From positions 1 through 34,766 of the forward strand of contig JAJOHZ010000007.1 in NCBI GenBank assembly GCA_021209625.1: a stretch of DNA of 34,766 bases, read 5' to 3'. The stretch comes from Erysipelotrichaceae bacterium (GTDB lineage Bacteria > Bacillota_I > Bacilli_A > Erysipelotrichales > Erysipelotrichaceae). How positions within the stretch are numbered: position 1 is the stretch's first letter; every line of letters begins with the position of its first letter. A program made the translations under genes and the position numbers. Under the pieces are notes generated by a model. It made no database searches. It worked only from the letters and a program-made list of their open reading frames with translations, and was not told where the DNA came from. Shown here piece by piece: positions 1 through 34,766 of this stretch.

Positions 1-728
1 TGCCTTACCCATCTTAGCCAGTTGTGCATAGGCATAAAAGTAGTAGAATGCCTGTGGCAGGAAACGTGCCACATTAATGGAGTTAGCCGATGTCAGTTGC
101 ATGTGAGCATTCAGCTCCTTGTCCATGAAAGCCGTTTTTTACGAGTGCCTGGCAGTCGTCGAATGTTCCTTCAATTTCCAGGGCTGTAATATTCTGACCC
201 AAAGTGGTGAACTGGCATTCCTGAATGGGGCTGACTTTCCCTTTGGGGTATAATACATACACATGGATACCCGGTACACCCAAAAAAGCCATTGGCAACG
301 GCACTTCCGGTATCTCCCGAGGTGGCAACCAATACGTTGACCTCTTTCTTGCCTTGTTTACGTATAAAATGACCTAACAGACGGGCCATAAATCTGCCGC
401 CTACATCTTTAAATGCAAGCGTGGGGCCGTGATATAACTCCAGACTATAAATGAGTCGTTTACATGCACCACCGGAGCATCGAAGGGAAGTGTGTTCGTA
501 TACAATTTGTTTTAAGGTATCGGCATCAACATCTTCACCGAAAAAGGCATCGGCAACTACGTATGAAATTTCCTGAAAAGACATATCCTTCATTTTTTCG
601 AAGAAAGATGATGGTAATGCCTTTATCTTTTCTGGCATATACAGACCCTTGTCGCCTGCCAGTCCTTTAACTACCGCCTCTTCCAAGGTGGCAAGAGGAG
701 CCAGTCTGTTTGTACTATAATATTTCAT
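1..728 (-). CDS. thrC: Threonine synthase, partial and frameshifted (foreign end fragment)
   Basis: PLP-dependent enzyme that converts O-phosphohomoserine to threonine. The start ATG is at 728-726 (MKYYSTNRLAPLATL). Family hallmarks are the PLP-lysine region HGPTLAFKDVGGRFMARLLG and the following VATSGDTGSAVANGF. The reading frame breaks at an A run (282-287, one extra base), after which GVPGIHVYVLYPKGKV continues in another frame. It breaks again at the T run 135-140, after which a thrC-like frame resumes toward position 1. A compensating +1/-1 pair near 455-490 garbles about a dozen residues. The C-terminal half lies outside the window. It sits 4 bases downstream of the apgM-like gene, the order used in Bacteroidetes thr operons. 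Composition and sequence are Bacteroidetes-like, unlike the rest of the window. Function is certain; its place in this genome is doubtful. Confidence 0.9.
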
Positions 729-732
729 CTTG

Positions 733-1302
733 TTAGTCTTTAAGAAATTCACGCATAAACTCATCCTCTTTCAACTCTCCGTAATATCCTTCTTTAGCCG
801 CATATTCATCGTAGCGTTGTACTGCATCGGGTGTTTGTCCGGGCTTGTAGATTATAAATGGGATAGGCTCATTAGTATGCGTCCGAATTGAACATGGAGT
901 GGGGTGATCGGGTAAAACAGCTATTGCCACCGGTTCATCCCATGTCTGCAGTGTTTCAAAGATGGGTTTGATAGCCCGCTTGTCAAGATACTCGATAGTC
1001 TTGATTTTTAAATCTACATCCCCTTCGTGTCCAGCTTCGTCGCTTGCCTCCACATGCAGGTAGACAAAGTCGTTTGTCTTCAGCGCCTGCAGGGCAGCTT
1101 CTGCTTTTCCCTCGTAGTTGGTGTCGTATAGCCCTGTGGCTCCCTCGACAGTTAAAACCTCCAATCCGGCATATACGCCGATACCTCTGATAAGGTCGAC
1201 TGCCGAGATAACAGCCCCTTTTTCAAAACCATACATCTGCTGCATGGTTTCCATGGCGGGACGGTAACCCGGCGACCAGGGCCAGATACTGTTGGCGGGA
1301 TC
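733..1302 (-). CDS. Archaeal-type cofactor-independent phosphoglycerate mutase-like protein (thr-operon type), 5'-truncated
   Basis: C-terminal part of an alkaline-phosphatase-superfamily protein of the ApgM family. In Bacteroidetes this gene lies between thrA and thrC and is thought to supply homoserine kinase activity (family knowledge). Visible features are [15 protein letters not shown] at the truncated N-terminus, HVEASDEAGHEGD with its metal-binding His/Asp/Glu cluster, and VLPDHPTPCSIRTHT with the second metal site. The first ATG in frame is at 1254, but homology runs upstream to the GAT codon at 1302-1300, where the sequence switches to gyrB of another organism. The gene is therefore cut by the join. 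The stop at 733-735 is just before thrC. Confidence 0.85.
   Translation of the reverse strand, partial: DPANSIWPWSPGYRPAMETMQQMYGFEKGAVISAVDLIRGIGVYAGLEVLTVEGATGLYDTNYEGKAEAALQALKTNDFVYLHVEASDEAGHEGDVDLKIKTIEYLDKRAIKPIFETLQTWDEPVAIAVLPDHPTPCSIRTHTNEPIPFIIYKPGQTPDAVQRYDEYAAKEGYYGELKEDEFMREFLKD
1299..1302. other. Chimeric join (Bacteroidetes thr operon / Firmicute gyrB) at a GATC
   Basis: Left of this point the minus strand reads in frame as ApgM-like protein (codons for DPANSIW). Right of it the plus strand reads in frame as GyrB ([16 protein letters not shown]). Both partial genes end exactly here. The shared tetranucleotide GATC is the cut site of Sau3AI/MboI and is compatible with BamHI ends, so a cloning or ligation chimera is plausible, though a four-base match can also be chance. 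Confidence 0.8.
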
Positions 1303-2659
1303 TTACAATTCGTGATCGATTAAGACAGATTGCCTTTTTAAACAAAGGAATTCGAATTTCCTTGTTTGATGAAAGAAATGAAGAAAACCTAGTAAGTACT
1401 GAATATTACTATGAAGGTGGAATCAAAGAGTATGTTGAGTACATTAACAAAATAAACACCTATCACAATGATGTTATATATGTTGAAGGAGAAGAAGAGA
1501 ATATTATTGTTGAAGTAGCAATGCAATACAACGATGGATATGCTTCTAACGTCTACTCTTTCTGTAACAATATCAATACTCATGAAGGTGGTACTCATGA
1601 AGAAGGATTTAGATCAACATTAACTCGACTAATAAATCAGTATGGTAAAGAGAATAATTTCATTAAAAAAGATGAAGATGCGCTTATTGGTGAAGATGTT
1701 CGTGAAGGATTAACAGCAATCATCTCCATTAAACATCCTGACCCACAATACGAAGGACAAACAAAGACAAAACTTGGGAATGCTGAAGTAAGACGTATTG
1801 TTTCAAACGTTATGGGTGCTCAATTTGAACGTTTCTTATTAGAAAACCCAAGTCAAGCTAAGACAGTCATTGAAAAAGCTATTATTGCTTCAAAAGCTCG
1901 CTTAGCTGCTAAAAAAGCTCGTGAATTAACTCGACGTAAAGGTGCTTTAGAAAATATCGTCCTTACCTGGTAAATTGGCAGATTGTTCTTCAAATGATTC
2001 ATCAATTTGTGAAAATCTATCTAGTGGAAGGTGATTCCGCGGGTGGATCGGCAAAACTTGGAAGAAATCGTGAATTTCAAGCAATATTACCATTACGTGG
2101 TAAGGTTATTAACGTTGAAAAAGCACAAAGACATAAGATATTTGATAATAATGAAATTCGTTCCATGATTACAGCTTTCGGTTGTGGTTTTGGTGAAGAG
2201 ATGGATTTAGAAAAATTAAGATATCACAAGATTGTAATCATGACCGATGCGGATGTGGATGGATCACATATTAGAACACTTATTCTTACTTTCTTCTATC
2301 GATTCTTAAAGCCTTTAATTGAGGCAGGGCATATTTATATTGCTCAACCTCCTTTATATAAGGTTTCAAAAGGTTCAACCATTAGATATGCGTATTCTGA
2401 TCAAGAATTAGAAGACATTAAGGCTGAAATAGGAACGGATAAATTCAATATACAGCGATACAAAGGTTTAGGTGAAATGAACCCTGAACAGCTATGGGAA
2501 ACAACCATGGATCCTGAGGTAAGAACGCTTATTCAAGTTGATGTTGAGAATGCTATGGAAGCAGATAACGTTTTTGAAATGTTAATGGGTGATGATGTAG
2601 AGCCAAGAAGAGATTTTATTGTTGAAAATGCCCGCTTTGTTAAGAACTTAGATATCTAG
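1302..2659 (+). CDS. gyrB: DNA gyrase subunit B, 5'-truncated, two frameshifts
   Basis: ATPase/TOPRIM subunit of DNA gyrase. The N-terminal ATPase domain (roughly the first 190 residues) is lost at the chimeric join. What remains is the transducer domain ([24 protein letters not shown]) and the TOPRIM and tail domains, with catalytic motifs [27 protein letters not shown] and [12 protein letters not shown]. Two single-base insertions, one in the TT at 1963-1964 and one in the A run 2012-2015, interrupt the conserved stretch that should read [11 protein letters not shown] through [13 protein letters not shown]. Removing both restores one continuous frame of about 450 codons. The frame ends 12 bases before gyrA, as expected for a gyrBA operon near oriC. 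Sequencing error is more likely than inactivation of an essential gene. Confidence 0.93.
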
Positions 2660-2671
2660 AAAGGAGTCATC

Positions 2672-5118
2672 ATGAACGATCAAAAGATAAAAAATATTAA
2701 TATTGCATCTGAAATGAAGACTTCATTTCTTGACTATGCGATGTCAGTTATTGTTGCAAGAGCATTACCTGACGTAAGAGATGGTTTAAAACCAGTTCAT
2801 CGCAGAATTTTGTTTGCTATGAACGATTTAGGCATGCATAGTGATAAAGCTTACAAGAAATCAGCACGTATTGTAGGTGAAGTCATTGGTAAATATCACC
2901 CACATGGTGATTCAGCAGTTTTATGAAACCATGGTTCGTATGGCTCAAGACTTTTTCATATCGTCACATGCTTGTTGATGGCCATGGTAACTTTGGTTCA
3001 ATTGATGGTGATAGTGCTGCAGCAATGCGTTATACCGAAGCTAGAATGTCTAAAATCGCAATGGAATTGGTTAAAGACATCAACAAAGACACCATTAATT
3101 ACACTGATAACTATGATGGTGAAGAACAAGAGCCAGTTGTTTTACCATCTTATTTCCCAAATTTACTCGTTAATGGAGCAACAGGAATTGCAGTTGGTAT
3201 GGCAACCAATATTCCACCTCACAACTTAGGAGAAACGATTGATGCCACTATCGCATTAATAGAAAATCCAACACTATCTACCATTGAACTCATGGAAGTC
3301 ATTCAAGGTCCTGACTTTCCAACTGGTGGAATTATTATGGGTCGCTCAGGCATCCATTCTGCTTTTGAAACAGGTAGAGGATCTGTCACTGTACGCTCAA
3401 AAGTAGATATCAATGAGTTGCATAATGGCAAGAAGCAAATTGTAGTGACAGAAATTCCTTATCAAGTCAATAAAGCTAATTTAGTTGAAAAAATTGCTGG
3501 GCTGGTAAGAGATAAACTGATTGAAGGAATTACAGATTTACGTGATGAATCCAATCGTCATGGCATTAGAATTGTGATTGAAACACGTAAAGACATTCAA
3601 GCAGAAGTGTTATTGAATCAATTGTATCGAATGACAGCACTTCAAACGACGTTTGGGATCAATACCTTAGCATTAGTTGATGGAAGTCCTAAGCAATTAG
3701 GGTTAAAAGAAGTATTACATCATTACATAGCACATCAAATAGAAGTGGTAAGACGAAGAACGCAGTTTGAATTAAACAAAGCATTGGATCGCGCTCACAT
3801 TTTAGAAGGTTTACGTATAGCACTTGATAATATCGATCGAATCATTTCAATCATTCGTGGATCAATGGATGATGAACAAGCCATCAATTCAATGATGAGT
3901 GAGTTCGGACTCACAGAGATTCAGTCTAAAGCGATTCTTGATATGAGACTAAAACGTCTTACTGGATTAGAAAGAGATAAGATTGAAGGCGAATATAACG
4001 ATTTGATGGTCGCAATTACAGATTATCGAGATATATTAGCTAACGAGCACAGAGTTTTCGACATTATTAAAACACAATTATTGGAGATTAAGCGTCGTTT
4101 TGCGGATTCAAGACGCACAGAGATTGTAGATAGTCATGATGATGTGCTTGATGAGGACTTAATTCCAGTTGAAGATGTTGTGATGGCGTTAACTCTTAAT
4201 GGGTACATTAAACGTACAACAGCAGACTCATTCCAAACTCAAAACCGAGGAGGAAAAGGGATTAAGGGCATGAGTACCCATAGTGATGATATTGTTGATC
4301 AATTCATACACATGTCAACTCATGATTCTCTCATGTTATTCACTAATTTTGGTAAAGTCTATCGAATAAGAGGATTCCATGTTCCATCTGCAAGTCGAAT
4401 TTCTAAAGGGCTTCCGGTTGTTAACTTACTCAATTTAGAAAAAGAAGAGCGAGTTAAAGCCATGGTTCCAGTTTCAAAAGAAACAAGTTATAAATATCTT
4501 GTCTTTGCAACCAAAAACGGACTAGTTAAGCGAGTCAGTCTTGATCAGTTTGATTCAATACGCCAGAACGGGAAAATTGCCATCTCACTCAATGAATCAG
4601 ACGAGTTAGTGGCAGTTAAACCAACAACAGGCGAAGATTTGATTATTCTTGCTGGAAACAATGGTAAGGCAGTTAAATTTGATGAAAGCGGCTTAAGACC
4701 AACAGGTAGAACAGCAATGGGGGTTAAAGGGTTTAATCCTGATGGCCAAGAATTGATTGGATTAACAACAGACAAAGAAGGACCTTTCATCTTATCAGTT
4801 ACTGAAAAAGGTTATGGTAAGAAGAGCCCACTTGAAGATTATCGATTGACTCAACGTGGAGGCAAAGGGGTTAAGACTGTCTCAATTACTGAAAAGAATG
4901 GCAAGCTTGTTTCTGTCAGAGCGGTTTGTGGAGATGAAGACATTCTGATTGTCACTGATTTAGGACAAGTTATTAGAATTAGTCTAAATGATGTAGGTAC
5001 TTATGGACGAGCTGCACAAGGTGTGAAACTTATCCGTGTTGATGAAGATGCGAAAGTTTCTGCTGTCGCAATCATCGAGAAGGAGACAGAAAACGAAGAA
5101 AATGAGGTTGCATTATAA
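2672..5118 (+). CDS. gyrA: DNA gyrase subunit A (two frameshifts)
   Basis: DNA breakage-reunion subunit of gyrase, about 814 residues once corrected. The start has a good ribosome site (AAAGGAG, 2659-2665). Motifs in order are [22 protein letters not shown], the catalytic tyrosine in [11 protein letters not shown], and a C-terminal beta-pinwheel with a GyrA-box-like [10 protein letters not shown] (around residue 525) that argues for GyrA rather than ParC. The quinolone-resistance region, once corrected, reads [17 protein letters not shown], keeping the susceptible-type Ser and an acidic Glu. Extra bases in the T runs 2919-2922 and 2952-2956 break the frame twice within 40 bases; frame-correct residues between them are a perfect family match. 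The stop lies inside the terminator hairpin. Confidence 0.96.
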
Positions 5119-24858: not shown

Positions 24859-25976
24859 AATCATACTTGTGGTTTTCAATACAACGACGCTGGATATCGA
24901 TGGGTTCCTTGATTTTGTTGAGTTTAAGTTTTAGTATCACTTCTGTTTTAATGTGGGTGGATCATTGGTTACCACATGATGAGGTTGTTTCAATACAATG
25001 GCCATCTCATTTAAAAGAGCATTTAGAAGAACATGAGTCAATCCGATTTGTCGATGAGGAAGCGGATATCAGTATTATTTATGAAGCACCATCTCGCTAT
25101 GTGATTCAACCTCATAAAACAAATCTTCCAAGTGATACATTGGAATCCATGATTAGGTTTGCTCATCAAAGATCCATGTTGGATACGTTTAGTCTAGAGA
25201 ATCAAATTAAGATTGTCATGATGTTAGAACCTGTAATTGAACAAGAACGTGGATCTTCTTCATTATTGTCAATCATCATAATAAGTTTCCTTTACTTCAC
25301 TCTATTAGGTTTCATTTCAAATCTTTCTACTGATGTTTTGAGTGAGAAACATTCTCAAGCATTAATGATGATTCTATCCACCATGAGCAAAAAGCGCTAC
25401 TTCAACATGAAGCTGCTTCAAAGCTTAATCAATATTGTGTTTCAGATTGGATTGGTATTGATTGGATTTATAAGTGCAGTTGGAATAAGGGTGTTATTTG
25501 ATCAAGGACGAGAATTACTTAGGTATGTTTATGAACAAGGATGGATACAGCATCGATTTGAATCCATCATTTCCATCATTCAACTCCTTATCAATGAGAC
25601 CTCAATGTCATTGTCTTTAGTTTTTTCAGCTCTTTCTTTCTTCATTGGATTATTGACATGCATGTTAATATTGCTTTGGCTAAGTGTGAAAGCCACAAAA
25701 AGTGAAGAACTAGCCATGATTCAAACACCGTTTTATATTCTTATCGTGATCATGTATTATGCATCATTGTGGATCAGTGAAATGCAGGGACTTAATGAAA
25801 ACTTTGGTTCGATATTATTGCATGTACCTATCCTCTCTATGATTTTCCATCCACTCCAACTGAGTATGTACGCCATTCCTTGGTGGAGTTCGCTAGTATC
25901 AATTGTTGTGGGATCTGGTTTTCTTTACTGGATATATTTGCGTTCATATCACTCATTTAATACCCAAAATCTATAA
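24855..25976 (+). CDS. ABC-2-type permease, NatB-like
   Basis: A 373-residue membrane protein: a signal-anchor-like first segment (LILLSLSFSITSVLMW), an extracytoplasmic stretch of about 100 residues, then about five membrane segments (SLLSIIIISFLYFTLLGFI, FQIGLVLIGFISAVGIRVL, LVFSALSFFIGLLTCMLIL, FYILIVIMYYASLWI, WSSLVSIVVGSGFLYW). This TM-loop-5TM plan is that of NatB/YhaP ABC-2 permeases. The ATG overlaps the ATPase stop; an in-frame GTG six bases earlier is a possible alternative. Confidence 0.8.
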   Translation: MKSYLWFSIQRRWISMGSLILLSLSFSITSVLMWVDHWLPHDEVVSIQWPSHLKEHLEEHESIRFVDEEADISIIYEAPSRYVIQPHKTNLPSDTLESMIRFAHQRSMLDTFSLENQIKIVMMLEPVIEQERGSSSLLSIIIISFLYFTLLGFISNLSTDVLSEKHSQALMMILSTMSKKRYFNMKLLQSLINIVFQIGLVLIGFISAVGIRVLFDQGRELLRYVYEQGWIQHRFESIISIIQLLINETSMSLSLVFSALSFFIGLLTCMLILLWLSVKATKSEELAMIQTPFYILIVIMYYASLWISEMQGLNENFGSILLHVPILSMIFHPLQLSMYAIPWWSSLVSIVVGSGFLYWIYLRSYHSFNTQNL

Positions 25977-26010
25977 AAATGTGACAATGTGAGAAAATTA
26001 ACAAATTGTG

Positions 26011-26039
26011 TTGACATTGTGAATTGTTGAACTTATAAT
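26011..26039 (+). promoter_or_regulatory. Perfect-consensus sigma-A promoter of the lipoprotein gene
   Basis: TTGACA (26011-26016), a 17-bp spacer, and TATAAT (26034-26039). AAGGAGGAATT follows at 26050-26060, directly before ATG 26064. Paired ATGTGA (25979, 25987) and ATTGTG (26005, 26016) elements, and the near-inverted TGACAATGT/ACATTGTGA, surround the -35 box and could be operator half-sites (inference). Confidence 0.88.
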
Positions 26040-26063
26040 ATCAATGAACAAGGAGGAATTCTC

Positions 26064-27038
26064 ATGAAGAAAGGTTTAATTTTAATTGCATTGACTCTTA
26101 TGACACTTGCAGGATGTGCGCCAGCTACACCAGATCCTGTTGTTTCTAAAGTTGGAACTGCTAGTGTTACATCTGTACAGCCTCGTGCTGTTACTGCTGA
26201 AGTTACTGGACGCATCCGCGTTAACGTAACGACTGCAACTGTTATGTTAGATAAAGATGGTAAATTTGTAAGCGTGAATATCGACGTTGCACAAAACGAC
26301 GGTACATTCGATGCTACTGGTGTTGTATTAACTGCTGACGCTGCTCCTACTAAGAAGGAAAAAGGCGATGCTTACAACATGAAAGGCTCATCTGCAATCG
26401 GTAAAGAATGGTATGAGCAAATTGCTGCTTTAGAAGAATGGATGATTGGTAAAACTTTAGCTGAAGTTAAAGCATTACCTGTAACTGATGGAAAAGTCAC
26501 TTCAGACTTAAAATCATCTGTATCTGTTACTGTTACTGATTACTTAGCTGCAGTTGAAAAAGCTGTTGCTGCTGCTGTTGAATTACAAGATGTTGCTAAA
26601 GTTGGTGCTCATTCTGTAACTACAATCCAAAAACGTGATGCTTCTGCTGAAACAGCTGGACGTATCCGCGTTAACACTACTTATGTTGGTGTTGCATTAG
26701 ATGCTGATGGAAAAGTATTACACGCATTCATCGACGTAGCTCAAAACGATGGTTTATTCGGTGTTGATGGTGTTGTTACTTCTGCTGTTGCTGCTCCTAC
26801 TAAGAAGGAAAAAGGCGATGCTTACAACATGAAAGGTCAATCAGCGATTGGCAAAGAATGGTATGAGCAAGCTGAAGCTTTAGAAGCTTGGATGGTTGGC
26901 AAAACTTTAACTGAAGTTAAAGCACTTCCATTAACTGATGGTTACATTACTGATGGACAAGATTTAAAATCTTCTGTATCAATCTCTGTAACTGATTACT
27001 TAGCTGCATTCGAAAAAGCTTACAACGCTGCTAAATAA
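26064..27038 (+). CDS. Secreted lipoprotein with two tandem ~150-residue repeats
   Basis: 324 residues. A type II signal peptide (MKKGLILIALTLMTLAGCAP) has lipobox LAGC, with the lipidated Cys at about residue 18. Two tandem copies follow (about 31-170 and 185-324), each with V-T-grIRVN, IDVAQNDG, APTKKEKGDAYNMKG, SAIGKEWYEQ, W-(I/V)GKTL-EVKALP-TDG and LKSSVS-VTDYLAA. I know this module from other Firmicute/spirochaete lipoproteins, where it is uncharacterised; resemblance to FMN-binding-type domains is only a guess. A consensus promoter, perfect ribosome site and codons typical of highly expressed genes suggest an abundant surface protein. Monocistronic with a strong terminator. Confidence 0.85.
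   Translation: MKKGLILIALTLMTLAGCAPATPDPVVSKVGTASVTSVQPRAVTAEVTGRIRVNVTTATVMLDKDGKFVSVNIDVAQNDGTFDATGVVLTADAAPTKKEKGDAYNMKGSSAIGKEWYEQIAALEEWMIGKTLAEVKALPVTDGKVTSDLKSSVSVTVTDYLAAVEKAVAAAVELQDVAKVGAHSVTTIQKRDASAETAGRIRVNTTYVGVALDADGKVLHAFIDVAQNDGLFGVDGVVTSAVAAPTKKEKGDAYNMKGQSAIGKEWYEQAEALEAWMVGKTLTEVKALPLTDGYITDGQDLKSSVSISVTDYLAAFEKAYNAAK
26340..26386 (+). repeat. 47-bp perfect direct repeat, copy 1
   Basis: Identical at DNA level to 26790-26836, exactly 450 bases (150 codons) apart. It encodes the APTKKEKGDAYNMKG block of lipoprotein repeat 1. Confidence 0.9.
26790..26836 (+). repeat. 47-bp perfect direct repeat, copy 2
   Basis: Second copy of the repeat at 26340-26386, in lipoprotein repeat 2. 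Identity at synonymous positions points to recent duplication, gene conversion or strong codon selection. Confidence 0.9.
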
Positions 27039-27057
27039 TTAACCTATATAAAAAGCA

Positions 27058-27089
27058 AAGAAGTATCCTATCTTGGATACTTCTTTTTT
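27058..27089. terminator. Bidirectional terminator between the lipoprotein gene and rarA
   Basis: An 11-bp perfect stem AAGAAGTATCC / GGATACTTCTT with loop TATCTT is followed by T's. The rarA stop (27068-27070) is inside it. Confidence 0.88.
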
Positions 27090-28327
27090 AATGCTTTCAT
27101 ATCATAACTTTTTTCAACTGAACGAAGTTTCTCTACATTATCAATGATTGTTTTCTCAAACGGAGAAGGATTCTCAATATGATAGAAACGTTGATTCTTA
27201 ATGCTCTCAGGTAGATAACCCACATGAATCCATAAATCGCTGCGATTATAATCATAGCGTTGAGATTCAGGTAAATTGACAGGTGTAAGAGTAAGATAAT
27301 GAGGGATGGGGTGTGATTCTTCCTTCATTAATGATAAAGCATGATCTATGGCTTGATTGGCTGATTTGGATTTTATACTGCTTGCACACTCAATGACCGC
27401 ATTGGCTAAGATGATTCTTGCCTCTGGTAGTCCAATCTTTAAGGCAGATTCACATGCTAAGACAACACGAGCTACCAAAGGAGGATTAGCTAAACCCACA
27501 TCTTCATAAGCCGTCACAATAAGACGACGAGTAATGGATTCTAAATCATTAAGCAAGATTAATCTTCCTAAATAATAAATAGAAGCATCCACATCAGAAC
27601 CTCGAATGGATTTTTGAAAGGCACTTAGCAAATCATAATGACCATCATCATCTTTAAATCCAACTTGCATGGCTTCAATGAGCACTTGGTTTACGGTTTC
27701 AACCTGAATGTGTGTTGTGATGAATGAACACAGTTCTAAAGTATTCAAAGCAAGTCTTACATCAAATCCAGTTCGTTTTGCGATGGTGATTAAAGCATCA
27801 TCTTCAGCAGAAGTATCTTTCAGACCATTAGGATGGGTTAATGCTCTTTGAAGCATTAAGACAATATCGTCTTGTTCAATGGGTTTAAATGGAATGAGAT
27901 GACATCGTGAGCGTATTGCTGGATTGATTGAAAACAAAGGATTAGCAGTGGTACATCCTATGAGTGTAATAACACCATTTTCTAAATAGGGGAGTAAATG
28001 ATCTTGTTTGTCTTTGTTCATGCGATGAACTTCATCCATGATGAGGACAAAACCTGAGACATGCTTTGCCTTATCAATGATGTCATCCAACTGCTTCTTA
28101 TTATTAATAGCTGCATTAAACACATCATAGGGTCTCATTAACTCACTCACCAAGGCTAAAGCAGCGGTGGTTTTACCAACACCACTTGGCCCATAGAAAA
28201 TAAGTGAGGGTAAGTTATTTTCTTCAATTAAACGCCTTAAAAGACCTTGTTTTGAAAACAAATGAGATTGTCCAACACAGTCATAAATGTTTTGAGGTCT
28301 TAAACGATGGGCTAAAGGTTCATTCAT
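27068..28327 (-). CDS. rarA: Replication-associated recombination AAA+ ATPase (RarA/MgsA)
   Basis: Acts at stalled replication forks; 419 residues. The N-terminus LAHRLRPQNIYDCVGQSHL is the family signature, followed by Walker A FYGPSGVGKTTAALAL, Walker B LIMDEVHRMNKDKQDHLLPY, sensor 1 IGCTTANP and the Arg finger region NPAIRSRC. The C-terminal tetramerisation part has SAFQKSIRGSDVDASIYYLG and YEDVGLANP. ATG 28327 is preferred over the upstream GTG because AAGGAGGT sits about 10 bases before it. Divergent from dtd. Confidence 0.93.
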   Translation of the reverse strand: MNEPLAHRLRPQNIYDCVGQSHLFSKQGLLRRLIEENNLPSLIFYGPSGVGKTTAALALVSELMRPYDVFNAAINNKKQLDDIIDKAKHVSGFVLIMDEVHRMNKDKQDHLLPYLENGVITLIGCTTANPLFSINPAIRSRCHLIPFKPIEQDDIVLMLQRALTHPNGLKDTSAEDDALITIAKRTGFDVRLALNTLELCSFITTHIQVETVNQVLIEAMQVGFKDDDGHYDLLSAFQKSIRGSDVDASIYYLGRLILLNDLESITRRLIVTAYEDVGLANPPLVARVVLACESALKIGLPEARIILANAVIECASSIKSKSANQAIDHALSLMKEESHPIPHYLTLTPVNLPESQRYDYNRSDLWIHVGYLPESIKNQRFYHIENPSPFEKTIIDNVEKLRSVEKSYDMKALKKKYPR

Positions 28328-32892: not shown

Positions 32893-34542
32893 ATGAAACG
32901 TTTTTATCACAAACTACTATCCTCGATTGTGTCGTTTATGCTCATCATTACGGCATCGTTCGTGCCGGAGTTGTTTAATTTTAGCATAGCCAATGCAGCG
33001 GGACCTTACCAAGCTGACTCAGGGGTTTATGAATTACTAGGAACCTCAACCAACGATCATACCGATGCCTATTATCTATGGCAACAAGGTAATACTATTT
33101 TTGTGGCGGTCACCGTGAATATTAATCAGAATCAATTGATTGATGTTCAAATGAATGGTGTCAGTGCAACTTCAACGGACTACCTAGGTAAAAGTGTATT
33201 GCTTAAAGTCTATGAAACAGGCAACATCACCACACCAATTTTAGATGTTGCTCCTCCAAGCAAGACATCCAATAATCCAAATAGTTGGGTTGTTGCAGCA
33301 TTCACCATGAATAATATTCCTAGTAGTTTCCTACTATCAGTATTAACTCCTGGTGGACATGCGATTACTAATGTCAGTTATACCGTTGTTGGGGCATTAG
33401 AAGTCTTCAATGAATACCCTCCAACTTCACCAGTGTTAGATGAAAACCAATCTCTTGGTAGTAACACTCTAGGTGGCATCGCAGCGGGTTCTTACACTTT
33501 CAATCCTACTCCAACTCTTGGATTTGAATACACAAGTGTTGTTTTAGAAATTGATAATGTTGTTATTGGAACAGCTGTAGTGGGATCACCATTCTCTTAT
33601 ACTTTCGCTGATGGAACCATTAATGTCAGTGAGAGTGGTGTGATTACTTTGGTCTTAACAAAAACATCCGCAAGAGAATATGACTTTACTTATTCCTATC
33701 AACTCTCAGATTATGTGCTTACTATTGAATATGAGTATGAAGATGGTTCAATAGCTGCGCCTGATTATACAGACACATTGAACTATCAAGATCCATATAG
33801 TGTTGTTTCTCCTACTATCCCTGGATATACTCCAAGTTTAGCAACTGTTTCAGGTACTATGCCTGCGAGCAATCGTACTGTGACTGTCACTTATACCGCA
33901 ATTGACTATACATTCACTTTCGTCCCTAATTGGGGAAGTGTACTTAATGAAGTACGTTCATTCAATGTCGGTGGTAGTGTCATCCCTCCAGTCTTCACTC
34001 GTGATGGTTATACATTTAAAGGGTGGACATCAGATCAAGCTGGTCTAAATCTTTATGTTGATGGATTCACTAACTTAACAGTAGGTAATAAAACTGTTTA
34101 TGCACAGTGGGAAGCTATTGATTACACATTCACTTTCGTTCCAAACTGGGGTAGTGAATTAAGTGTTGATCGTATCTTCAATGTGGGTGGTAGTGTTACC
34201 CCTCCAGTCTTTACTCGTACTGGCTTTACCTTCACTGGTTGGTCATTAGATGTTGAAGGAACACAAACATACACTCAATTCTCCAATCTTACTTCTGGAA
34301 ATAAAACAGTCTATGCACAGTGGTCACAAAATAACTACAGTTTCACATTTGATCCAAACTTTGGAGATGGTGCTAATGTCGTTCAAATGTTCAACTTTGG
34401 TGGTAGTGTTGCGGGAACCTCCTTTACACGTCTAGGTTACACCTTTGATGGTTGGACCTTAGATGAGGCTGGACTTACTCCTTATACTGGTGGATTAACT
34501 AATCTACCAGCCGAAGATATTTATGTTTACGCTCAATGGGAA
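32893..34542 (+). CDS. Secreted repeat surface protein (MucBP + InlB/Flg_new repeats), 3'-truncated
   Basis: Signal peptide: MKRFYHKLL, a hydrophobic core, and cleavage after SIANAA (about residue 36). A unique N-terminal region of about 240 residues has no recognised motif. A MucBP-like unit follows (LTIEYEYEDGSIAAPDY ... IPGYTP ... VTVTYTA, about 276-336). Then come three Listeria-Bacteroides (InlB B-type) repeats starting near residues 337, 409 and 480, each with F-VGGSV, FTR-G-TF-GW and KTVYAQW or equivalent. The AGGAGGAAAG ribosome site is 5 bases after the leader. Likely a wall-linked adhesin; the anchoring end is lost at the right join, after YAQWE. Codons from about 34543 to the TGA at 34600 are foreign sequence. 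Confidence 0.85.
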
Positions 34543-34550
34543 AATTTAAA
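34540..34550. other. Second chimeric join (surface protein / toxin-antitoxin fragment)
   Basis: The plus-strand repeat protein is family-like up to YAQWE (34528-34542), then turns into non-repeat residues. On the minus strand, coding for a toxin N-terminus reads from 34571 down to about 34545 and then loses sense. Both genes end within an A/T-rich stretch, so the exact break cannot be fixed. Confidence 0.7.
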
Positions 34551-34571
34551 AATTGGGTGTAATGATGACAT
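34545..34571 (-). CDS. First codons of a probable RelE/ParE-type toxin gene
   Basis: ATG at 34571-34569 overlaps the antitoxin TAA (TAATG). It reads MSSLHPIFK before the join cuts it. The overlap with an antitoxin-like gene is the only reason for the call; the fragment is too short for a family assignment. Confidence 0.35.
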
Positions 34572-34766
34572 TAGCTTTCATTTAAAAACGCCTTTAAAGT
34601 GACCCGTGGCGCTTTGCCCTGCTTGATGTCTTCCACTTCCTGAAAAGCCTTTTTTAGACTCGTTTTCAGAGCCAAATACGTTCGCCACTCCGCCAATTCC
34701 CGTTGTATTTCCTGCCATTCGGCGATGGAAATCAGCACGGCTTGTTTGTTGCTGTCGGCATCGGTT
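34571..34766 (-). CDS. Antitoxin-like protein, C-terminal part (foreign end fragment)
   Basis: An open frame with no start inside the window: TDADSNKQAVLISIAEWQEI, then QRELAEWRTYLALKTSLKKA, ending TLKAFLNES and TAA. The pattern AVLIS-xEWQEIQ..L..W..Y.ALK.SL..AF.E....K.GK.....L..FL.E is that of antitoxins of small type II systems in Bacteroidetes and cyanobacteria, usually followed by an overlapping toxin gene. GC content is clearly above that of the core, matching the left-end fragment rather than its neighbour. Confidence 0.6.
   Translation of the reverse strand, partial: TDADSNKQAVLISIAEWQEIQRELAEWRTYLALKTSLKKAFQEVEDIKQGKAPRVTLKAFLNES

Follow-up and report, generated by a model that had tools for sequence, protein, structure and literature searches.

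In the DNA analysed here, a 34,766-nt stretch (hereafter the window) of an Erysipelotrichaceae draft genome that is 60% complete at 1.12 Mb, one gene encodes a lipoprotein built of two similar modules. We consider it probable that this protein is an abundant, PplA-like extracytoplasmic electron carrier of the FMN_bind superfamily holding two flavins, which the cell's own ApbE would attach to Ser154 and Ser306, with Rnf as the probable electron donor. In the mechanism that we propose, the protein would be anchored in the membrane and act at the cell surface as PplA does in Listeria, each of its two FMN_bind-superfamily modules most likely carrying one FMN so that the whole would form a two-flavin unit. 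ApbE would link FMN to the last Ser of D-L-K-S-S-V-S in each module; electrons would probably be donated by the Rnf complex, whose RnfD and RnfG subunits hold three FMN_bind modules and whose operon adjoins the ApbE gene, and would then pass to a final electron acceptor. If this holds true, a protein that ranks among the most strongly expressed in this anaerobic lineage would be an extracellular electron carrier, and reduction of Fe(III), humic compounds or electrodes would be predicted for bacteria usually thought to be plain fermenters.

The features of the gene are collected in Table 1. The mature lipoprotein has a computed mass of 32 kDa and a computed pI of 5.0. Beyond the hairpin at its 3' side lies a convergent gene for an MgsA-type ATPase, while further 5' are found a gene for the ATPase of an ABC transporter and an ORF of 375 aa; the latter has no Pfam match and reads, from its sequence, like the membrane partner of that ATPase. 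The same succession of ABC transporter, lipoprotein and MgsA is seen in most members of the clade. A search of positions 25900-27120 against Rfam returned no match.

Table 1. Features of the two-module lipoprotein gene and its flanks (window coordinates)
Feature	Position	Strand	Remarks
Sigma-70-type promoter, TTGACA-17-TATAAT	26011..26039	+	All 12 bases in 8/10 sequences inspected
Ribosome binding site, AAGGAGG	26050..26056	+	7 nt before ATG
Two-module lipoprotein gene	26064..27038	+	324 aa
Lipoprotein signal peptide	26064..26117	+	Lipobox LAGC, up to Cys18, the sole Cys
Module 1, putatively FMN_bind-type	26142..26591	+	Residues 27-176
47-bp identical block, module 1 copy	26340..26386	+	Identical to 26790-26836
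Candidate flavinylation site 1	26505..26525	+	D148-L-K-S-S-V-S154; motif register with 2kzx
Module 2, putatively FMN_bind-type	26592..27035	+	Residues 177-324
47-bp identical block, module 2 copy	26790..26836	+	Identical to 26340-26386
Candidate flavinylation site 2	26961..26981	+	D300-L-K-S-S-V-S306; motif register with 2kzx
Hairpin, 12-bp stem	27057..27086	.	Terminator-like, listed on - strand; between convergent lipoprotein and MgsA-type genes

Judged by sequence homology, the module is a divergent module of the FMN_bind type. A profile of 51 modules, compared with 177,635 PDB sequences, returned 2kzx as its sole hit at E values up to 10 (E 9.5e-7), and the motif D-L-k-S-s-v-T of the profile stands in register opposite D-A-I-S-G-A-T of 2kzx. 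Single-sequence phmmer searches of the PDB gave E 0.22 and 0.79 only, the second being 2kzx, and hhalign against a 21-row FMN_bind profile gave a weak match (probability 8.9, E 0.0037, 28 columns) with the motif again in register. By BLASTP, the window protein matches a PplA-like protein (L161:5231-6100) at E 3e-6 in one comparison, S-G-V-T lying opposite S-S-V-S; this relative belongs to PF04205 (E 4.8e-10), and its gene precedes ApbE and points away from an NDH-2 gene, just as Listeria pplA is described as divergent from an NADH-dehydrogenase gene (PMC4379056). Moreover, in one protein (L105, 5530-6909) a canonical FMN_bind module (PF04205, E 5.1e-15) is joined to two modules of the lipoprotein family. 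The end of this fusion gene is overlapped by an ApbE ORF.

Formally, the window protein lies outside PF04205: this model (cut-off 22 bits) yielded no row for it and touched one of the 51 modules, at E 0.066, and among all Pfam and NCBIfam models none exceeded its cut-off for the window protein or the 51 modules. The best rows, MoCoBD_1 in Pfam (E 5.3e-4, under cut-off; two of the 51 modules) and bacteriocin_acc in NCBIfam (E 0.0037), were set aside together with the other low rows as chance matches of a composition-biased protein.

Regarding the fold, AlphaFold gave a pLDDT of 92 and a pTM of 0.87 for the two modules together, the latter fitting a fixed arrangement of the modules in the model, and a pLDDT of 95 for one module. 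In VIA-align the whole model retrieved 2kzx first (Z 7.8), then 3o6u (Z 7.2), the next being at 6.4. With the model of one module, 3o6u came first in VIA-align (Z 9.2, 3.2 A, 105 residues aligned), 2kzx was not among the rows listed, unrelated proteins followed with the CODH medium subunit at Z 7.8 and IscU at Z 7.2, and Foldseek found nothing at E <=0.001 for either the whole model or one module. Models that lack a clear match often reach a best Z of 7 to 8, and here unrelated folds come close behind, so that fold resemblance alone does not carry the FMN_bind case. Such folds at Z 7 to 8, together with family models that all stay under their cut-offs, are what one would expect if the protein were an unrelated surface protein (an adhesin, an S-layer-like protein or a substrate-binding lipoprotein) whose likeness to FMN_bind reflects a common alpha/beta arrangement, but the profile match to 2kzx with its motif in register, the fusion to a canonical FMN_bind module and the ApbE linkage described below make this reading very improbable.

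Matches to the lipoprotein were found in 26 of 60 genomes of relatives, its own genome counted in, and a two-module profile matched 87 of 392 genomes of the phylum, which is an upper figure because several of the weakest rows cover only the first 31-63 profile positions. In named genomes at least 525 loci were confirmed, of which the best 80 were used; these come from Erysipelotrichaceae, Lachnospiraceae, Oscillospiraceae, Clostridiaceae, Paenibacillus and others, and by these sequence matches the lipoprotein family is large in Firmicutes. A peptide-pattern search of viral contigs gave no close relative, and a plasmid collection gave one match, in a 2.6-Mb Acetoanaerobium noterae record labelled plasmid and without annotated genes.

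Within the best 80 of the at least 525 loci, ApbE is the next gene downstream in 43 of the 77 that have at least 1.3 kb of downstream DNA, at gaps of -10 to 332 bp (three checked by Pfam) and with no other ORF of at least 90 aa starting within 600 bp. Further ApbE genes lie behind a sequence gap (L050), upstream (L087, L091) or 3.3 kb downstream (L109). In another family of the same order (f2), ApbE adjoins the lipoprotein in seven of eight genomes, the gene of G045 meeting a contig end, and ApbE is present in 25 of the 26 genomes that match the lipoprotein versus 24 of the 34 that do not (Fisher p 0.016, relatedness ignored). The view of the sequence-only reading that the repeated module has no known function does not survive this linkage and the 2kzx match. 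A known domain with a defined function is indicated only indirectly, through 2kzx and the ApbE context, the Pfam and NCBIfam scores staying under their cut-offs.

The same best 80 of at least 525 loci include 12 with NDH-2 upstream, all with ApbE downstream, and seven with a full EET gene set of seven gene kinds (L083, L099, L100, L104, L106, L110 and L113), both counts being lower bounds because only 59 of the 80 loci have more than 5 kb of upstream DNA. The order in these loci is NDH-2, polyprenyl synthase, UbiA, EetA-like NusG_II, EetB-like PF07456, lipoprotein and ApbE, and L083 was checked by Pfam; by their gene content, the seven represent Listeria-type EET gene sets with the family lipoprotein in the place of PplA. 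It could be argued from them that the lipoprotein is a member of a Listeria-type, Ndh2-dependent EET chain in the window organism too. We hold this to be improbable, however. The EET-type NDH-2 was not detected in G000 (60% complete), G002, G003 and G004 (99% complete), being found at full length in one of 15 genomes tested (G139), and the clade gene has an ABC transporter on one side and an MgsA-type gene on the other. NusG_II (EetA-like) is present in 15 of 15 genomes tested and thus does not discriminate. Beside the clade gene itself, no ApbE was found in L036, L037 and L039-L045, L038 having too little downstream DNA.

Rnf genes lie near the lipoprotein gene in three relatives. In L087 (Solobacterium sp.), rnfD-rnfC are divergent from ApbE, an ArsP_2 exporter and the lipoprotein; in L091, rnfC is likewise divergent from ApbE, one ORF and the lipoprotein; and in L165 (642-7125), an Rnf operon is followed by the gene of an 829-aa, six-module relative of the window lipoprotein. 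From these neighbourhoods, and from the fact that EET-type NDH-2 was not detected in the genus, we infer that electrons in the genus of the window probably come from Rnf rather than Ndh2. RnfC and RnfD of the own genome had no match among the other 78 of the 80 named loci (the best 80 of at least 525). For multi-flavinylated RnfG, a transfer of electrons to other acceptors outside the cytosol has been proposed (PMC8238504). Two side observations concern these loci: the exporter gene of L087 (4739-5575) is of the ArsP_2 type and stands between the ApbE and lipoprotein genes, and one protein encoded in the Rnf operon of L165, 586 aa long, has three FMN_bind stretches.

In the own genome one ApbE was detected, on contig C7, divergent upstream of an Rnf operon (L116, 5182-11967) in which RnfD bears one FMN_bind module, at its C-terminus, and RnfG bears two. 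An NQR-type operon, named from its translations, contains a further FMN_bind subunit, and an EetA-EetB pair is present; in Listeria, EetB is described as needed for PplA flavinylation as part of a FAD exporter (PMC9973259). Rnf and Nqr already give a reason for the single ApbE to be there, which counts against our reading. The RnfB-like ORF of this Rnf operon has only 102 aa.

The candidate flavinylation site was compared in 160 modules, in which the majority reads [D/E]-L-x-[S/T/A]-S-V-[T/S]. The last residue is Ser or Thr in all 160 (21 of 21 in the own clade), the first Asp or Glu in 159 and the fourth Ser or Thr in 133; Gly in place five occurs in 13, Ala in place six in two and the canonical [S/T]GA in one, while S-V occupies these two places in 124 modules, including those of the window. 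With respect to the published ApbE motif, D-x-x-[S/T]-G-A-[S/T] (PMC12052999), the DLKSSVS that occurs twice in the window has the acidic first residue and the hydroxyl last residue at the right spacing, with SV in the place of the Gly-Ala that precedes the accepting residue. According to the same source, Gly to Ala and Ala to Val leave about 50% flavinylation, Thr to Ser lowers it by 10-55%, and Asp to Ala mattered little (PMC12052999). From the sequence, D-L-K-S-S-V-S could plausibly serve as a site for the ApbEs tested to date, though a sub-optimal one, because Ala to Val and Thr to Ser lower flavinylation, Gly-to-Ser being outside the set tested. PplA is reported to be flavinylated on two Thr, and to accept flavin also when Ser stands in the place of Thr (PMC8906456). 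Among the 85 modules of the 43 loci with linked ApbE, 84 have Thr as their last residue and the sequence SSVT occurs in 52, a pattern suggestive of a matching ApbE.

These site data bear on the main rival to our reading, namely that the clade kept the FMN_bind fold and lost the covalent flavin, the protein having a structural, binding or non-covalent flavin role. Both window modules end in Ser in a SSVS context and the clade lacks an adjacent ApbE, as would be expected after such a loss; in the substrates tested, flavinylation drops with either exchange, Thr to Ser or Ala to Val (PMC12052999). The hydroxyl residue has nevertheless been kept in all 160 modules, by S/T exchange only, whereas position 3 varies, and the own genome has ApbE as well as EetA/EetB genes, so that we judge the loss unlikely. 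A flavin covalently bound at the SSVS sites would be the preferred reading. SSVT, SSVS or SGVT was not named as a flavinylation site in the literature searched, subscription papers lying outside it, which makes this weak evidence of absence. If such sites are used, a large family in EET operons escapes any search restricted to PF04205 or to [S/T]GA[S/T], and SSVT and SSVS would offer a defined test of the tolerance of ApbE to site changes.

Among known systems, FMN-bind2 domains of about 160 aa are described as often occurring in even number (PMC11334425; preprint PMC10979944), and a two-FMN-bind2 protein of Erysipelotrichaceae has been modelled with AlphaFold as a pseudo-symmetrical unit of two modules packed sheet to sheet, with two flavin sites (PMC11334425 Fig. 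1B, PMC10979944). The window protein resembles this protein (PMC11334425) in its taxon, in its two modules of about 150-160 aa and in their even number: its own modules have 148-150 aa and are two, in line with the even number and ~160 aa of FMN-bind2, single-module relatives existing as well. The inserted strand(s) of FMN-bind2 may have their counterpart in an additional strand that both window models show between beta3 and alpha1. Both sites of the window protein read SSVS in the place of [S/T]GA[S/T], the likeness to the published protein being one of taxon and architecture.

With PplA and Cad of Listeria, Enterococcus and Lactiplantibacillus, the window protein has in common the architecture of a two-module lipoprotein, its homology to the PplA-like protein L161:5231-6100, and the fact that genes of its family's relatives sit with NDH-2 and ApbE genes. 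The Enterococcus Cad lipoprotein has been linked to ApbE, with SGAT motifs in Cad and its orthologues (PMC7074142), and in L. plantarum EET is reported to need PplA under certain conditions only (PMC8837199). The window protein differs from PplA in that its gene lies outside any EET/ApbE locus, its site is SSVS with Ser, and no Ndh2 was found in the genus. The modelled fold may correspond to that of A3DHT5 of C. thermocellum (2kzx) and CPE2226 of C. perfringens (3o6u), the latter being the FMN-bind1 reference structure (PMC11334425); with 2kzx an E-W-x-E-Q helix and the D-x-x-S-x-x-T site are shared, but both proteins have one module each and 15-18% identity in the structural alignments. RnfG and NqrC FMN_bind (PF04205) modules show the motif register in hhalign and Z 4.6 in VIA-align (9eri_G, 4xhf), but these are membrane-complex subunits, not lipoproteins, and sequence similarity is below the Pfam cut-off. 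Compared with what is in print, the family-wide SSV[T/S] site, a clade detached from ApbE and Ndh2, and the conserved very strong promoter were not found in the literature searched.

The very strong expression read from promoter, ribosome site and codons alike found support. TTGACA-17-TATAAT has a sole exact match in the 34.8-kb window for a chance mean of 0.10, which by itself is modest evidence because 10 of 100 shuffled windows also gave at least one. Its conservation weighs more: in the window and nine clade orthologues (L036-L042, L044 and L045; L043, with its broken frame, was left out), all 12 bases are present in eight of ten sequences, 53-55 nt before the start and with diverging flanks, L042 having 11 and L045 10 of them, and AAGGAGG stands 7-9 nt before the start in all ten. 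With 18 ribosomal-protein genes of the own genome as reference, the lipoprotein reached a codon adaptation of 0.819, rank 1 among 80 mechanically called ORFs of at least 110 aa in four regions of that genome. This compares with a mean of 0.712 for the ribosomal-protein genes, a mean of 0.590 and a maximum of 0.713 for the remaining ORFs of the window, and 0.612 +/- 0.024 (maximum 0.706 among 2000) when the lipoprotein was redrawn with background codons. Judged by promoter and codons, these data support very strong expression. That the lipoprotein is among the most abundant proteins of the cell is a prediction and stays one, because the genome is 60% complete and four regions of it were scored.

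A Rex-type operator, looked for by eye, was dropped: the spacer word TTGTGAATT is present in the window, L036 and L037 only and absent from L038-L042, L044 and L045. At positions 25978-26030, TGTGA words are repeated 5' of and within the promoter; they are common to the window, L036 and L037, not clearly found in the other orthologues, and might possibly form an operator.

Putting sites, gene contexts and expression together, we tentatively suggest, as an idea with less than even chances, that an entire lineage of electron carriers on the surface of Firmicutes uses a relaxed D-L-x-S-S-V-[T/S] site with its own ApbE subtype, and that the Erysipelotrichia carrier, cut loose from that ApbE and from Ndh2, expressed by its codon bias at the level of ribosomal proteins or above, and served by the Rnf-linked ApbE, might as a very abundant lipoprotein with two flavins drain or buffer Rnf electrons at the cell surface.

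The history of the two modules was also considered. They are 69% identical over 147 aa, and their DNA is 73% identical across 300 nt at a spacing of 450. Within it, the identical block of 47 bp, whose copies lie 450 bp apart, proved to be non-random, being reached in none of 2000 synonymous shuffles of the gene (largest 45). Synonymous codons agree at 14 of 15 places within the block versus 9.3 expected from the gene's own usage, and at 46 of 68 outside it versus 40.6 expected. In this region the window reads AAG AAG GAA AAA GGC GAT in both modules, while L036, the nearest orthologue, reads AAA AAA GAA AAA GGT GCT in module 1 and AAG AGA GAA AAA GGC GAT in module 2. Because module 1 of the window here resembles module 2 of L036, local gene conversion from module 2 to module 1 would be the simplest reading of the block.

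Of the two causes first proposed for it, recent duplication or gene conversion, the second is therefore kept. Recent duplication was ruled out by the module tree, in which the first module of the window pairs with the first of L036 (support 100/96) and the second with the second (99/91), making the duplication older than the split of the two, and by the presence of two modules in 79 of 81 proteins, among them those of the best 80 of at least 525 loci. The exceptions are L043, with a frame broken within the second module, and L108, with one module by profile. Across the tree 29 label changes are needed versus 53.6 in shuffles, which implies that modules were homogenised or re-duplicated several times; the best BLAST match of the 160 modules is the same-position module of another protein for 122, the own partner for 35 and another for three. 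Module number differs between distant lineages (one, two and six): single-module proteins of about 140-160 aa are found in several genomes of the same family, and the 829-aa protein of L165 gave six module matches. These differences lie between distant lineages and give no support to the suggested change of copy number between strains. In G011, G019 and G025, two single-module genes stand near each other in tandem.

Elsewhere in the window, ORFs at positions 1-5118 are presumably gyrB, gyrA and threonine-synthase- and phosphoglycerate-mutase-like genes, named from their translations. The gyrB gene seems to set in partway through its own coding sequence, at ~1362, beside the reversed threonine-synthase- and phosphoglycerate-mutase-like ORFs, and the frames are split at about 1973-1994 in gyrB and at about 2923 in gyrA; an assembly join and frame errors are a possible explanation of these oddities. 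Finally, the surface protein encoded at positions 32893-34602 combines a MucBP domain with three Listeria-Bacteroides repeat stretches, and its codon adaptation is also fairly high at 0.679.
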